The notes beneath the pieces were generated by a model. It did no database searches. It saw nothing but the letters and a program-made list of their open reading frames with translations, and had not been told where the DNA came from. From Parolsenella massiliensis (lineage in GTDB: Bacteria; Actinomycetota; Coriobacteriia; Coriobacteriales; Atopobiaceae): a stretch of 64,000 nucleotides of DNA. The stretch covers positions 905,111-969,110 of the forward strand of contig NZ_LT671675.1 of the NCBI RefSeq assembly GCF_900143685.1. The letters are read 5' to 3'. Below, piece by piece: positions 47,240-59,012 of the stretch. The translations under genes and the position numbers were made by a program. The first letter of the stretch is position 1. Each line of letters starts with the position of its first letter.

Positions 47240-47689
47240 CTAGTTGATACCACTTGAGCCAAATCCGCCAGAGCCCCTGTCAGTCTCATCAAGCTCGGAA
47301 ACCTCGCGAAGACAGACCGTGGGCACCTTCTGGATAACGAGCTGGGCGATGCGCTCGCCACGCTCGATGTGAACGGGCTTCTCAGCGTCAAGGTTTACGG
47401 CGCACACCTTGAGCTCACCGCGGTAGTGGGCATCAATGAGGCCCGGCGTATTCGCCATGGACAGCCCCTCGCGAAGGGCCAGGCCGCTTCTAGGCTGAAC
47501 AAAACCGGCGTGGCCATCTGGAATGGCAACGGCAAGACCTGTAGAAACAAGACGGCGCTCAAGCGGCGCGAGCGTAACATCCTCGTTGGAGCGCAGGTCA
47601 AGACCGGCGTCGCCCTCGTAGGCATAGCTCGGAAGCTCAACCGACGGGTCAAGCCTCTTGATGGGAAGGACGATGGGATCGCTACTCAC
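47240..47689 (-). CDS. dut: dUTP diphosphatase (dUTPase)
   Basis: 149 residues, trimeric dUTPase. All five motifs can be traced: [24 protein letters not shown] with the catalytic Asp, GERIAQLV, and the C-terminal arm [10 protein letters not shown]. It removes dUTP and supplies dUMP. It overlaps nrdR by 8 bases, linking nucleotide-pool sanitation with ribonucleotide-reductase control; thioredoxin reductase downstream serves the same pathway. Confidence 0.95.
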
Positions 47690-48134
47690 CGGAAAGCCTC
47701 CTTAGCTCGGCAGAGAACTCCTCGATGTCCTTGAAGTCGCGATAGACGGAGGCAAATCGAACGTAGGCCACCTTGTCGATGTCTGCCAGACGGTGGAGAA
47801 CCATCTCACCCAAGGCGCTGGAGTCCACCTCGGTGGTCCCGTGATCTCTCAGCTCGCTCTCGATGTCGCCAATAAGCTTGTCGAGCACATCGATGGGGAT
47901 GTCACGCTTGACGGTGGCGCGCACCAACCCCCGCATGAGCTTCTCGCGGTCAAACGGCTCCTTTGATCCGTCATGCTTGAGAACGACGAGTGGGAGTTCC
48001 TCTCGGCGTTCGTAGGTGGTGAAGCGAAAGCCGCATGAAACGCATTCGCGCCGACGTCTGATGGAGTCATTGTTCTCGGCAGGACGGGAATCTACGACCT
48101 TAGACTCCTCGCATCCGCATTTGGGACAGCGCAT
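47682..48134 (-). CDS. nrdR: Transcriptional repressor NrdR
   Basis: 150 residues. The zinc ribbon uses C3 and C6 ([11 protein letters not shown]) and C31 and C34 ([12 protein letters not shown]), followed by the ATP-cone with [20 protein letters not shown]. It represses ribonucleotide reductase genes according to ATP/dATP level. The ATG at 48134 is chosen because MRCPxC is the universal start and GGAGGAAGCC precedes it; a 12-residue longer frame has no support. No clear pair of NrdR boxes is seen in its own promoter. Confidence 0.96.
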
Positions 48135-48170
48135 GGCTTCCTCCGTATCACAGAAACACTTGCGATACAT

Positions 48171-48205: not shown

Positions 48206-48220
48206 GGGGCTAAATGCCCC
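48206..48220 (-). terminator. Short hairpin after the lexA-divergent gene
   Basis: GGGGC-ATTTA-GCCCC on the minus strand, followed by TGTTTCT, 7 bases after the stop at 48228. A weak terminator. Confidence 0.4.
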
Positions 48221-48227
48221 AATTACC

Positions 48228-48524
48228 TCACAGCGAGATGGCCCACGTGAGGATGACGAGCGCAGCCACGAGCAGAAAGCCGAGCTCACCGGCAAGCTGC
48301 TGGCAATCGTTCAGAATGGGAGCCGCGCAAACGGAGCGTTGAGCGGACCTATTCCAGCGAGCGACATCCGAAACGAGGGTGCGAGCAGAATAGGAATCCC
48401 TGGAGCGAACGCTGCCGTTGTCACCAGTAGAGCCGCCGTCAATCACAACAAGATGAGACTGCTCCGGCTCGGGACAAAGCGCAGAAGTTCCGGCGGTGCG
48501 ATAGATGCGGTTAGAATTCCTCAC
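48228..48524 (-). CDS. Small tail-anchored membrane protein divergent from lexA (candidate SOS-induced)
   Basis: 98 residues; no family recognised. The first 76 residues are hydrophilic with five Cys/His-poor Ser/Arg-rich blocks (SVRSRDSYSARTLVSDVARW). The last 18-20 residues (LGFLLVAALVILTWAISL) are a single membrane segment at the very C-terminus. No LysM domain is visible, unlike YneA or ChiZ, the cell-division inhibitors that sit divergent from lexA in Bacillus and Mycobacterium. The GTG at 48524 is chosen for its AGAGAGGA Shine-Dalgarno; a TTG at 48608 would lie upstream of the predicted transcript start. A consensus promoter with two LexA-like boxes precedes it. A damage-induced role is inferred from that context. 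Confidence 0.6.
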   Translation of the reverse strand: MRNSNRIYRTAGTSALCPEPEQSHLVVIDGGSTGDNGSVRSRDSYSARTLVSDVARWNRSAQRSVCAAPILNDCQQLAGELGFLLVAALVILTWAISL

Positions 48525-48606
48525 GTTCTCATCCTCTCTCTTGCAATATCGACAGCTACAGTTATACGAACCATTGCGGACACTAATTGTGTTTGTGTTG
48601 AGCTTC

Positions 48607-48618
48607 AAACACTTGTTC
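48607..48618. promoter_or_regulatory. LexA-like box 1
   Basis: AAAC-ACTT-GTTC: seven of eight matches to GAAC-N4-GTTC. It lies just downstream of the -10 of the leftward promoter, over its predicted start. Confidence 0.6.
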
Positions 48619-48625
48619 TATACCT

Positions 48626-48653
48626 AGTATCTACGTACAGTTGTTCGTGTCAA
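48626..48653 (-). promoter_or_regulatory. Leftward promoter of the small membrane protein gene
   Basis: Minus strand: TTGACA (complement of 48648-48653), a 16-base spacer, GATACT (complement of 48626-48631). The -35 is a perfect consensus. LexA-like box 2 fills the spacer. The predicted start is near 48619, giving a leader of about 95 bases. Confidence 0.65.
48635..48646. promoter_or_regulatory. LexA-like box 2
   Basis: GTAC-AGTT-GTTC, seven of eight matches to GAAC-N4-GTTC, centred in the spacer of the leftward promoter. Confidence 0.6.
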
Positions 48654-48662
48654 GTGAAAATA

Positions 48663-48674
48663 GAACAAATGTTT
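48663..48674. promoter_or_regulatory. LexA-like box 3
   Basis: GAAC-AAAT-GTTT, seven of eight matches, overlapping the first bases of the lexA -35 element. Confidence 0.7.
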
Positions 48675-48701
48675 GAATACATAGGCGAACGCGTGTATGA
48701 T
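48673..48701 (+). promoter_or_regulatory. lexA promoter
   Basis: TTGAAT (48673-48678), a 17-base spacer and TATGAT (48696-48701). The predicted start near 48708 leaves a 20-base leader that contains AAGGAGAGAAGGAGG. Confidence 0.75.
48687..48698. promoter_or_regulatory. LexA-like box 4
   Basis: GAAC-GCGT-GTAT, six of eight matches, in the spacer and first half of the -10 of lexA. It is 24 bases from box 3. Confidence 0.6.
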
Positions 48702-48727: not shown

Positions 48728-49381
48728 ATGTCTGAGGTAAAGATTTCCGCACGTCAGCAGCAGGCCTATGACTTCATCTGCAGCTTCACGGCAACGCACG
48801 GCTATCCGCCCTCCGTTCGAGAGATCGGGGCGGCCATCGGCCTCTCCTCGCCCTCAACCGTCCACTCCCACCTCCATAAGCTTGAGAAGGCAGGCTACAT
48901 TCGTCGAGACCCAAACAAGCCAAGAACCATAGAGATCACGGGGCCTGGCAGCGAGGAACTGCAGCAGAACGCCTCGCTCGCAGAGGTCTCGCAAGACGTT
49001 GACAACGGAACCGTCACCCTCCCCGTGGTTGGAAGGGTGGCCGCCGGCACTCCGATCCTTGCCGAGCAGAACGTCGAGGAGGTCATGACGCTGCCCACCT
49101 CTCTCATCGGGGACTCAAGCTCGTTCATCCTCCGTGTTCGCGGTGAGTCCATGATCAACGCCGGCATCTTCGATGGCGACTACATCGTCGTCAAGGAGCA
49201 GCATGACGCCCACAACGGTGAGATCGTCGTTGCGCTCATTGATGACTCCGCCACCGTCAAGACCTTCTATCGCGAGAAGAACCGGATTCGTCTCCAGCCA
49301 GAGAACGACACGATGGAGCCCATCTACGCAGACAACCCAACGATTCTTGGCAGGGTGACGGGTCTGCTCAGGTCTCTCTAG
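48728..49381 (+). CDS. lexA: LexA repressor
   Basis: 217 residues. The N-terminal winged helix (about 5-65) includes GYPPSVREIGAAIGLSSPST and VHSHLHKLEKAGYI. The S24 domain has the self-cleavage bond A106-G107 in RVAAGTPI, nucleophile S141 in RGESM and base K178 in SATVKTF. It represses SOS genes until RecA filaments trigger self-cleavage. Boxes 3 and 4 over its own promoter indicate autoregulation. The acyltransferase gene starts 4 bases after the stop and is probably in the same transcript. Confidence 0.97.
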   Translation: MSEVKISARQQQAYDFICSFTATHGYPPSVREIGAAIGLSSPSTVHSHLHKLEKAGYIRRDPNKPRTIEITGPGSEELQQNASLAEVSQDVDNGTVTLPVVGRVAAGTPILAEQNVEEVMTLPTSLIGDSSSFILRVRGESMINAGIFDGDYIVVKEQHDAHNGEIVVALIDDSATVKTFYREKNRIRLQPENDTMEPIYADNPTILGRVTGLLRSL

Positions 49382-49385
49382 CGAA

Positions 49386-50171
49386 ATGTCAATCGATTCG
49401 GTCTCCGCTAAACACAGTTACCGCATACACGGCTACGACGTGATACGTGGGCTCTCGGTCATATCCATGGTCGGGTTCCATCTCTGCTATGACCTGGTGT
49501 ATCTCTATGGAACAGGCCCAGGCTGGTTTGCCCCTCCCCTACAGGATGTGTGGCGCTCCTCGATATCCTGGGTGTTTCTGCTCATGGCGGGCATCATGGC
49601 CACGTACTCGAGGAGCAATCTCAAGCGAGCGTGCAGGTATCTTGCCGCGGCTCTCGCAATCTTTGTCGCAACCTCCGTTGCCAGCGTGGATACGCCCATC
49701 AACTACGGCATCATCTATTGCATGGGATTTAGCACCCTGGTTGCATGGGTTGTGCAGAAGGTGACTCCCAAGGAACTGACCGTCCTTGGGAGAGTCATGG
49801 CGGCCGCCATATGCGCCATGGCATTCCTGCTCTGCCTCGGAATTCCAACAGGTACGTTTGGGCTCAAGCAGTTTGGCGGACCGTATGTGCGAGTCTCCCC
49901 CGCTCCCTATGCCAGCGGGCTCCTGAGTTGGCTTGGCTTCCCTGGACCTCGATTCACTTCGGGAGACTACTACCCGCCCATACCCTTCACGCTGCTGTAT
50001 CTCTCAGGCTATTTCCTGGGTGGGATCATACAGAAGAGCGGCCATGCAGCAGAGGCGCTGTCTAGGCTCAGATGCAGGCCGCTGGAGGTTGTTGGCAGGC
50101 ATGCGTTGGAAGTCTATGTTATCCACCAGCCCCTCATTCTGCTCGTCCTCACGCTCGCATTCGGACGCTAG
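49386..50171 (+). CDS. DUF1624 / heparan-alpha-glucosaminide acetyltransferase-like membrane protein
   Basis: 261 residues, about seven membrane segments. The N-terminal RIHGYDVIRGLSVISMVGFH is the DUF1624 (HGSNAT catalytic) signature, with R and H in the first membrane segment. A conserved FTLLYLSGYFLGG-like segment and the C-terminal VGRHALEVYVIHQPLI, typical of membrane acyltransferases, follow. It may acetylate a surface sugar or lipid; the substrate is unknown. The ATG at 49386 is 4 bases after lexA, with only a weak AGG upstream, suggesting coupling. The stop abuts the stop of convergent hflX with no spacer. Confidence 0.82.
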   Translation: MSIDSVSAKHSYRIHGYDVIRGLSVISMVGFHLCYDLVYLYGTGPGWFAPPLQDVWRSSISWVFLLMAGIMATYSRSNLKRACRYLAAALAIFVATSVASVDTPINYGIIYCMGFSTLVAWVVQKVTPKELTVLGRVMAAAICAMAFLLCLGIPTGTFGLKQFGGPYVRVSPAPYASGLLSWLGFPGPRFTSGDYYPPIPFTLLYLSGYFLGGIIQKSGHAAEALSRLRCRPLEVVGRHALEVYVIHQPLILLVLTLAFGR

Positions 50172-57862: not shown

Positions 57863-58954
57863 CTACTCGCCATCAAGATCCGCAGCCTCAGCAGACGCTG
57901 GCTCCACACCATCGAGCGGAGCGAGACCGGCCGCCTCGCGGACGCGCGACTCAATCTCGTCCCTGAGGTCGGGATTGGTACGCAGGAACTCCTTAGCCGC
58001 CTCCCTGCCCTGGCCGAGGCGCTCGCCCTCATAGGTGTACCAGGCACCGGACTTGTTCACAATCTCATCCTCGACGCCAAGGTCCAAGATCGAGCCCTCC
58101 TTGGAGATGCCGGTGCCATACATGATGTCGAACTCGGCGGTCTTGAAGGGAGGTGCGACCTTGTTCTTGACGACCTTGACGCGGACGCGGCTTCCCACGA
58201 TGTCGCCACTCTGCTTGATCGTGTCGATGCGGCGAATGTCCATGCGAACCGACGAGAAGAACTTGAGTGCGCGGCCGCCCGGCGTGGTCTCAGGATTGCC
58301 GAACATGATGCCGATCTTCTCACGCAGCTGGTTGATAAAGATGCAGGTGGTGTTGGACTTGGAGAGTGAGCCGGCGAGTTTGCGAAGGGCCTGGCTCATA
58401 AGACGGGCCTGCAGGCCCACCGTGGTATCGCCAATCTCACCCTCGATCTCCGCACGGGGAACGAGCGCCGCCACCGAGTCGACGACGACGACGTCAATGG
58501 CACCAGAGCGCACGAGCATGTCACAGATCTCAAGGGCCTGCTCACCGGTGTCTGGCTGGGAGATGAGAACCTCGTCGATGTCCACGCCAATGCGGGCGGC
58601 GTATCCTGGATCGAGCGCGTGCTCGGCGTCGATGAAGGCAACGACGCCACCCATGGCCTGGGCCTCCGCGAGAATTTCAAGCGAGAGGGTGGTCTTGCCG
58701 GAAGACTCGGGGCCATAGACCTCCACGATGCGGCCCCTGGGGACGCCGCCGATGCCAAGGGCAACGTCAAGCGCAAGGGAACCGGTGGGAATGGCCTCGA
58801 CGTGGAGGTCCGGACCGCCCTCGCCATACTTCATGATCGCACCCTTGCCGAACTTCTTCTCAATCTCGGCCGTCGTGGACTCGATCATCTTGGTGCGCTC
58901 TTCGCCCGTGGTTGGGGCGTGAATCTCTCGCGAAACCGCGTTGGACTTTGCCAT
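57863..58954 (-). CDS. recA: Recombinase RecA
   Basis: 363 residues. Walker A is [30 protein letters not shown] and [20 protein letters not shown] follow, with loop L2 region [20 protein letters not shown]. It forms filaments on single-stranded DNA for recombination and triggers LexA cleavage. The ATG at 58954 is preferred over the one at 58969: the predicted transcript starts near 58977, so the earlier ATG would have almost no leader, whereas GGAAGGGA lies five bases before the later one. A perfect LexA box lies in its promoter. Confidence 0.98.
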
Positions 58955-58983
58955 CTCGTTCCCTTCCATTGCTTCCTCCCGAC

Positions 58984-59012
58984 ATGATACGCGAACAATC
59001 GTTCGTGGTCAA
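58984..59012 (-). promoter_or_regulatory. recA promoter
   Basis: Minus strand: TTGACC (complement of 59007-59012), a 17-base spacer that contains the LexA box, TATCAT (complement of 58984-58989). Confidence 0.8.
58993..59004. promoter_or_regulatory. LexA box of recA
   Basis: GAAC-AATC-GTTC, a perfect match to GAAC-N4-GTTC, extended on both sides to CGAAC/GTTCG. It lies fully inside the -35/-10 spacer, where a bound repressor blocks RNA polymerase. Confidence 0.85.

Follow-up and report, generated by a model that had tools for sequence, protein, structure and literature searches.

YneA of B. subtilis is encoded divergently from lexA behind LexA boxes, and it has a single, N-terminal transmembrane (TM) helix and a LysM domain that is required for its function. 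The TM helix alone brings YneA to the divisome via TM7 of FtsW, while YneA without LysM arrives at the division site and does not block division (PMC13396833). ChiZ (Rv2719c) of mycobacteria is encoded beside lexA and contains a cytoplasmic N-terminal region, a TM helix and a LysM domain. According to a passage in PMC7355643, which cites Vadrevu et al. (2011), the disordered N-terminal region and the TM helix together suffice for filamentation, and a review of the Corynebacterineae holds that the LysM domain of ChiZ is apparently not needed (PMC3989709). SosA of S. aureus is divergent from lexA and has a single TM helix and no LysM; it is inactive without its outer part (PMC6851548). DivS, an SOS division suppressor of C. 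glutamicum, is also encoded next to lexA and lacks LysM (PMC6851548, PMC3989709). SidA and DidA of Caulobacter are small single-TM, damage-induced inhibitors with FtsW/I/N as targets (PMC4211646). LysM-free, lexA-adjacent inhibitors are thus a kind already known from SosA and DivS (PMC6851548), which was overlooked in the preliminary description of the present locus, where the known proteins were said to carry LysM.

The gene studied here, below called the window gene, is found in a 64,000-nucleotide stretch of the Parolsenella massiliensis genome (the window). It is flanked by lexA, from which it diverges, and nrdR, as in Coriobacteriia relatives. It shares with yneA the divergent position, the predicted LexA boxes and the single TM helix of its product, and its sister-genus orthologs match the curated YneA model NF010723. 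The window protein differs from YneA in having an 80-residue, probably cytoplasmic part with a G-[TS]-x-A-L motif, in ending with the TM helix and in lacking LysM, and NF010723 itself does not match it. As both LysM and a match to NF010723 were looked for and neither was found, the protein is by strict membership not a YneA, although we think that it works like an inhibitor of the YneA/ChiZ type. It resembles ChiZ in its N-terminal region plus TM helix and its place beside lexA, a likeness judged from layout, and lacks the LysM domain that ChiZ carries. With SosA it has in common the divergent position, the single TM helix and the absence of LysM. However, the SosA layout, a TM helix near the N-terminus and an extracellular C-terminal segment holding the activity, is not seen, since the TM segment of the window protein comprises residues 80-98 and nothing follows it. 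DivS, compared by description, is likewise a LysM-free, lexA-adjacent suppressor, but its C-terminus is predicted to be extracellular. SidA and DidA are similarly small and single-TM, and damage-induced as the window protein is presumed to be, but belong to another bacterial group and are not known as lexA-divergent orthologs.

The window gene and its control region

The features of the locus are given below by coordinates and strand (a dot where no strand applies).

48228..48524 (-): window gene, 98-aa putative SOS-regulated membrane protein with N-terminal motif and C-terminal membrane anchor, without LysM (open frame; ortholog 47% identical; dN/dS 0.53 (0.26-0.92); N-terminal profile E 7e-10)
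48429..48524 (-): N-terminal conserved motif region, residues 1-32 (...GTSAL.PEP...LVVIDGG; motif pattern; hhalign probability 96.5, E 9e-10, residues 3-35)
48231..48287 (-): C-terminal TM segment, residues 80-98, protein end (hydropathy 2.22 over 19 residues; AF2 helix 73-97)
48206..48220 (-): terminator-like hairpin directly past the stop codon (pattern scan)
47682..48170 (-): nrdR, next gene downstream, likely start 48134 (Pfam Zn_ribbon_NrdR, ATP-cone)
48606..48619 (.): LexA box 1 (CAAACACTTGTTCT), 1 mismatch to GAAC-N4-GTTC (starts 48607), 28 bp from box 2
48626..48653 (-): leftward sigma-70-type promoter TTGACA-16-GATACT with LexA box 2 in its spacer (pattern scan; near-identical in the second species)
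48634..48647 (.): LexA box 2 (CGTACAGTTGTTCG), 1 mismatch to GAAC-N4-GTTC (starts 48635)
48662..48675 (.): LexA box 3 (AGAACAAATGTTTG), touching the -35 element of the lexA promoter, 1 mismatch to GAAC-N4-GTTC (starts 48663)
48673..48701 (+): rightward lexA promoter TTGAAT-17-TATGAT (pattern scan)
48686..48699 (.): weaker LexA box 4 (CGAACGCGTGTATG), overlapping the lexA promoter spacer and -10, 2 mismatches to GAAC-N4-GTTC (starts 48687)
48728..49381 (+): lexA (Pfam LexA_DNA_bind 8e-22, Peptidase_S24 3e-34)
58992..59005 (.): exact LexA box upstream of recA (57863-58969, -) (pattern match)

The 98-residue frame starts with GTG behind a GAGAGG Shine-Dalgarno sequence; the second genome of the genus that was examined (G001) has ATG at this position. 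The body of the protein is hydrophilic, and its single hydrophobic 19-mer (residues 80-98, mean Kyte-Doolittle value 2.22) ends on the final residue. AlphaFold agrees with one confident helix, residues 73-97, with pLDDT values of 96 and 88 across the last two blocks and mostly low confidence elsewhere. The start codon, Shine-Dalgarno site, hydrophilic body and C-terminal membrane segment reported earlier were all recovered, as was the leftward promoter (48653..48626). The two LexA-like boxes of that report are also present, but the number was too low: there are three boxes with one mismatch and one with two. An extension of the frame upstream to 126 aa, with a Cys-rich SYNCSCRYC stretch, looked conserved; as the changes there are mostly non-synonymous, it was taken as 5'-UTR. 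Conservation between the two species is not limited to the Shine-Dalgarno site and also covers a block of this 5'-UTR just before the start codon, at 48530-48575.

Predicted boxes 1-3 are spaced exactly 28 bp, the prevailing spacing in both the window genus and the tail-anchored clade described below, while spacings of 24-28 bp are found in the window's own family (f1). When the 14-base pattern CGAACNNNNGTTCG was searched with up to two mismatches over the whole window, 44 sites were found against 44 expected, which is the chance level. The significance of the boxes rests instead on their enrichment in the regulatory regions across genomes, where 266 sites with at most one mismatch to GAAC-N4-GTTC were found against 6.5 in shuffled sequences. 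The mean number of boxes upstream of lexA is 3.0 in the window genus (g1), 2.85 in f1, 2.85 in the tail-anchored clade and 3.5 in other LysM families, compared to about 0.05 after shuffling. In the whole genome GAACNNNNGTTC occurs seven times, against 116 times for the pattern reversed as a control. Of the seven sites, three precede recA (window 58992), uvrA (L213) and ruvC (L212), the two latter genes being named by eye from their sequences. At the sequence level, these exact matches within the same genome confirm the type of LexA box. A gene encoding an HGSNAT_cat-type acyltransferase membrane protein (PF07786, 3.6e-39; 49386-50171, +) starts 4 bp past the lexA stop, and it is possibly co-transcribed with lexA and hence SOS-induced.

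While the LexA proteins of the two species are 96% identical, the divergent proteins share 47% identity (tblastn) at nearly equal length. The window gene evolves fast, with a dN of 0.53 compared to 0.037 for lexA. The dN/dS ratio is 0.53 (bootstrap 95% 0.26-0.92; 1% of the bootstraps at or above 1) at a dS of about 1, and by segment it is 0.52 for the N-terminal motif, 0.77 for the middle region, where the identity falls to 19%, and 0.32 for the juxtamembrane and TM part. The coding frame is open in both species, whereas the two other frames contain several stops, and the leftward promoter stretch is almost unchanged despite the high dS. Given the ortholog, a dN/dS below 1 and the stops in the alternative frames, the window gene is by these comparisons a real protein gene, fast-evolving yet maintained, and the frame conservation expected in the preliminary description is thereby found. 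A chance reading frame or a purely regulatory spacer between lexA and nrdR might account for a short, fast-evolving sequence outside any curated family; it is already contradicted by the conserved frame, the start codon with its Shine-Dalgarno site, the dN/dS below 1 and the profile homology presented below, and is hardly credible.

Orthologs with and without LysM

The lexA neighbourhoods were taken from 98 f1 genomes with lexA, and a TM protein is encoded divergently from lexA in 91 of them, so that the locus is a conserved one. In 89 of these 91 proteins 67-85 residues follow the TM helix; in the two species of the window genus the numbers are 0 and 2. The same number (89/91) match the NCBIfam model "cell division suppressor protein YneA", and Pfam LysM has a match in 85, while both proteins of the window genus match neither. 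Outside the window genus, the lexA-divergent gene encodes a YneA-type protein with one TM helix and a C-terminal LysM domain in all 87 distinct f1 sequences. The gene is absent in the sister genomes L196, L198, L201, L203 and L206, where nrdR lies 166-324 bp from lexA, so that it is dispensable. In L057, L142, L147 and L189, several of which belong to genus g27, most of the N-terminal part is gone and the TM helix and LysM are kept, so that these proteins resemble YneA of B. subtilis.

Searches of Pfam and NCBIfam with the window protein gave no match, in agreement with the earlier statement that no family is recognised. Its sequence was also described as unrelated to the LysM-bearing inhibitors, and this has to be revised. 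A family profile of the N-terminal region, built without the window genus, matches the window protein with an E-value of 7e-10, and none of 500 shuffled sequences scored as high. Alignment of residues 3-35 to the LysM-bearing family with hhalign gave a probability of 96.5 (E 9e-10), and N-terminal profiles of the LysM type and of the tail-anchored type both score the protein above all shuffles. The strict pattern G-[TS]-x-A-L is found in 44 of 49 tail-anchored proteins and in 63 of 89 LysM proteins of the family. Because of this N-terminal homology to the LysM proteins of YneA type encoded at this locus in the rest of the family, the window gene is, as judged from sequence, an ortholog of the YneA-type lexA-divergent gene that has been shorn of its LysM domain, and not an unrelated gene. 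The homology is strong for the N-terminal motif; for the TM helix, only position and hydrophobicity agree.

The reported absence of LysM was borne out for the protein, where the LysM profile scored no better than on shuffles, and extends to the whole genome: PF01476 had no match in the window genome (G000) or in G001. Translation of all three forward frames from the stop codon of the window gene to nrdR gave no recognisable LysM. Residues 51-75 (VARWNRS...NDCQQLA) look by eye like the second half of a LysM domain; this remnant was rejected since the family LysM profile did no better than on shuffles (the second-half profile was equalled by 466 and 508 of 1000) and hhalign gave a probability of 0.5%. 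Among the sister genomes 47 gave a LysM match, and in 46 of them it adjoins lexA. The lexA-divergent gene thus encodes practically the sole LysM protein of these genomes, which is unusual for Gram-positives.

At the order and class level three forms of the lexA-divergent protein were found. The first (f12 and f15-f20) has a short N-terminus, a TM helix and LysM, with one truncated exception in f17. The second has the N-terminal motif, a TM helix and LysM and is found in f1 and in the Collinsella-type family f10. The third has no LysM and consists of a body followed by an extreme C-terminal TM helix; it is found in f2, f4, f6, f8, f9 and one full-length f5 member, and most of its proteins have the motif. 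We take f2 to be the Eggerthellaceae, including a genome (G149) that appears to fit E. lenta DSM 2243. LysM is present in 87/87 distinct sequences in f1 outside the window genus compared to 0/42 in f2, and all 42 f2 sequences end at most five residues past the TM 19-mer. Homology between the N-termini of the two groups can be recognised, as they matched each other above the shuffled 99th percentile in 31/48 and 53/81 cases (hhalign 84%). In the motif, Leu follows in 84-92%, Gly and Ala being fixed by the search pattern itself. A second conserved stretch, [LF][RK]xG[ST]xxG, is found shortly before the anchor in 25 of 49 tail-anchored proteins and is absent from the window protein. The exception in f17 (L297, 734-967) is a 77-aa protein ending eight residues past the TM helix among LysM-bearing relatives; it may reflect yet another loss of LysM, in a distant order, or a fault of the assembly.

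A tree of LexA+NrdR with 87 rows resolves the LysM-free group as one clade (100/92) and the LysM group f1+f10+f3+f7 as another (98/91). The window genus lies inside f1+f10 (100/99), and the outgroup carries LysM. As the genus is nested among LysM-bearing relatives, LysM has been lost there. The tree placement and the outgroup suggest as the simplest history an ancestral LysM domain and at least two separate losses, in the window genus and in the Eggerthellaceae clade, both keeping the N-terminal motif and the anchor. A recent loss peculiar to the window genus was also considered, and dropped because the same form is found throughout the Eggerthellaceae at order-level loci. Horizontal import from the Eggerthellaceae does not seem to be needed, as the second half of the motif is VIDGG as in the family and not IIxFP. 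The family-type profile scores 33.2 and the Eggerthellaceae-type profile 20.5 on the window protein; for G001 the family-type score is slightly lower (22.4 vs 25.0).

Tail-anchored proteins gave no match in Pfam, NCBIfam or PDB. Within the libraries searched, this form without an outer part and with a conserved cytoplasmic motif across a large clade would be new. A literature search gave nothing combining Coriobacteriia with LexA and SOS, and from titles and abstracts none of the Eggerthella literature appeared to study its SOS system.

Possible role of the tail-anchored protein

The locus, the LexA operators and the membrane anchor support the window gene as a candidate SOS division inhibitor, as first suggested. 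We consider it probable (about 60%) that its product is an SOS-induced inhibitor of the YneA/ChiZ type acting via the TM helix and the cytoplasmic N-terminal motif, where induction, topology, partner and division arrest are all presumed. LexA on three to four boxes over both divergent promoters would keep lexA and the window gene off, and RecA-driven cleavage of LexA after DNA damage would switch them on together. The product would span the membrane with an internal N-terminus and practically no part exposed outside. For its relatives a grip on septal glycan by LysM is expected; the window protein does not have this domain. As LysM has been lost, any action would have to run through the two remaining parts: the TM helix, which probably docks on FtsW/FtsI like that of YneA, and the cytoplasmic part with G-[TS]-x-A-L. 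Septation would then be paused until repair is finished. This interpretation is favoured by the ChiZ fragment, in which the same N-terminal plus TM layout suffices for filamentation. The fast evolution of the gene and its absence from some sister genomes speak against it, and so do the precedents of B. subtilis YneA and SosA, inactive without LysM or the outer part.

Those precedents lead to the main rival explanation, that the gene is vestigial: having lost LysM, its product would not arrest division, and the gene would be decaying or near neutral, kept only because it lies in the region that regulates lexA. In favour of this, neither YneA-TM nor SosAd40 is active, the middle region has diverged to 19% identity at a dN/dS of 0.77, and some sister genomes manage entirely without the gene. 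A decaying gene would, however, hardly stay open in both species at a dS of about 1, when both alternative frames contain many stops, or combine a dN/dS below 1 with conservation of precisely the motif, the TM helix and the promoter. The LysM-free form is moreover stable over 42 Eggerthellaceae sequences, and we find decay unlikely. A changed role is less probable still. The TM helix, which in YneA is enough for FtsW docking, might still dock on the divisome with the protein serving as a modulator or placeholder instead of a stop signal, or the motif, which both the LysM-bearing and the LysM-free forms retain, might relay a signal to a cytoplasmic partner; retention of the ancestral role is simpler, and no such partner is known.

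For the inhibitor of the YneA/ChiZ type, a wider proposal can be put forward only tentatively, with the odds somewhat against it. A class of tail-anchored, LysM-free SOS inhibitors may have evolved from YneA-type ancestors in Coriobacteriia on two or more occasions and may block septation from the cytoplasmic or membrane side via the new G-[TS]-x-A-L motif, a mechanism unlike the septal glycan grip of YneA. Models of YneA assign the blocking to LysM, whereas in the mycobacterial data the N-terminus and TM helix are enough. The Coriobacteriia provide a natural experiment on this point, having dropped LysM at least twice and kept the motif, the anchor and the SOS operators, and which part stops division can be tested directly by a small series of swaps. 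For gut Eggerthellaceae, presumably including E. lenta, the locus adds a candidate damage checkpoint gene that is absent from Pfam, NCBIfam and PDB.

CtpA-type proteases clear SosA and YneA (PMC6851548). An S41/CtpA-type protease was not found in nearly all family genomes searched, the window genus included, and the checkpoint-clearing protease of B. subtilis and S. aureus thus seems to be missing in this family. The N-terminal motif could then be a cytoplasmic degron, a turnover signal replacing the clearance of an outer domain, rather than an inhibitory part. This is very improbable, as nothing links the motif to a protease and S41 proteases are present in several of the motif-bearing families.
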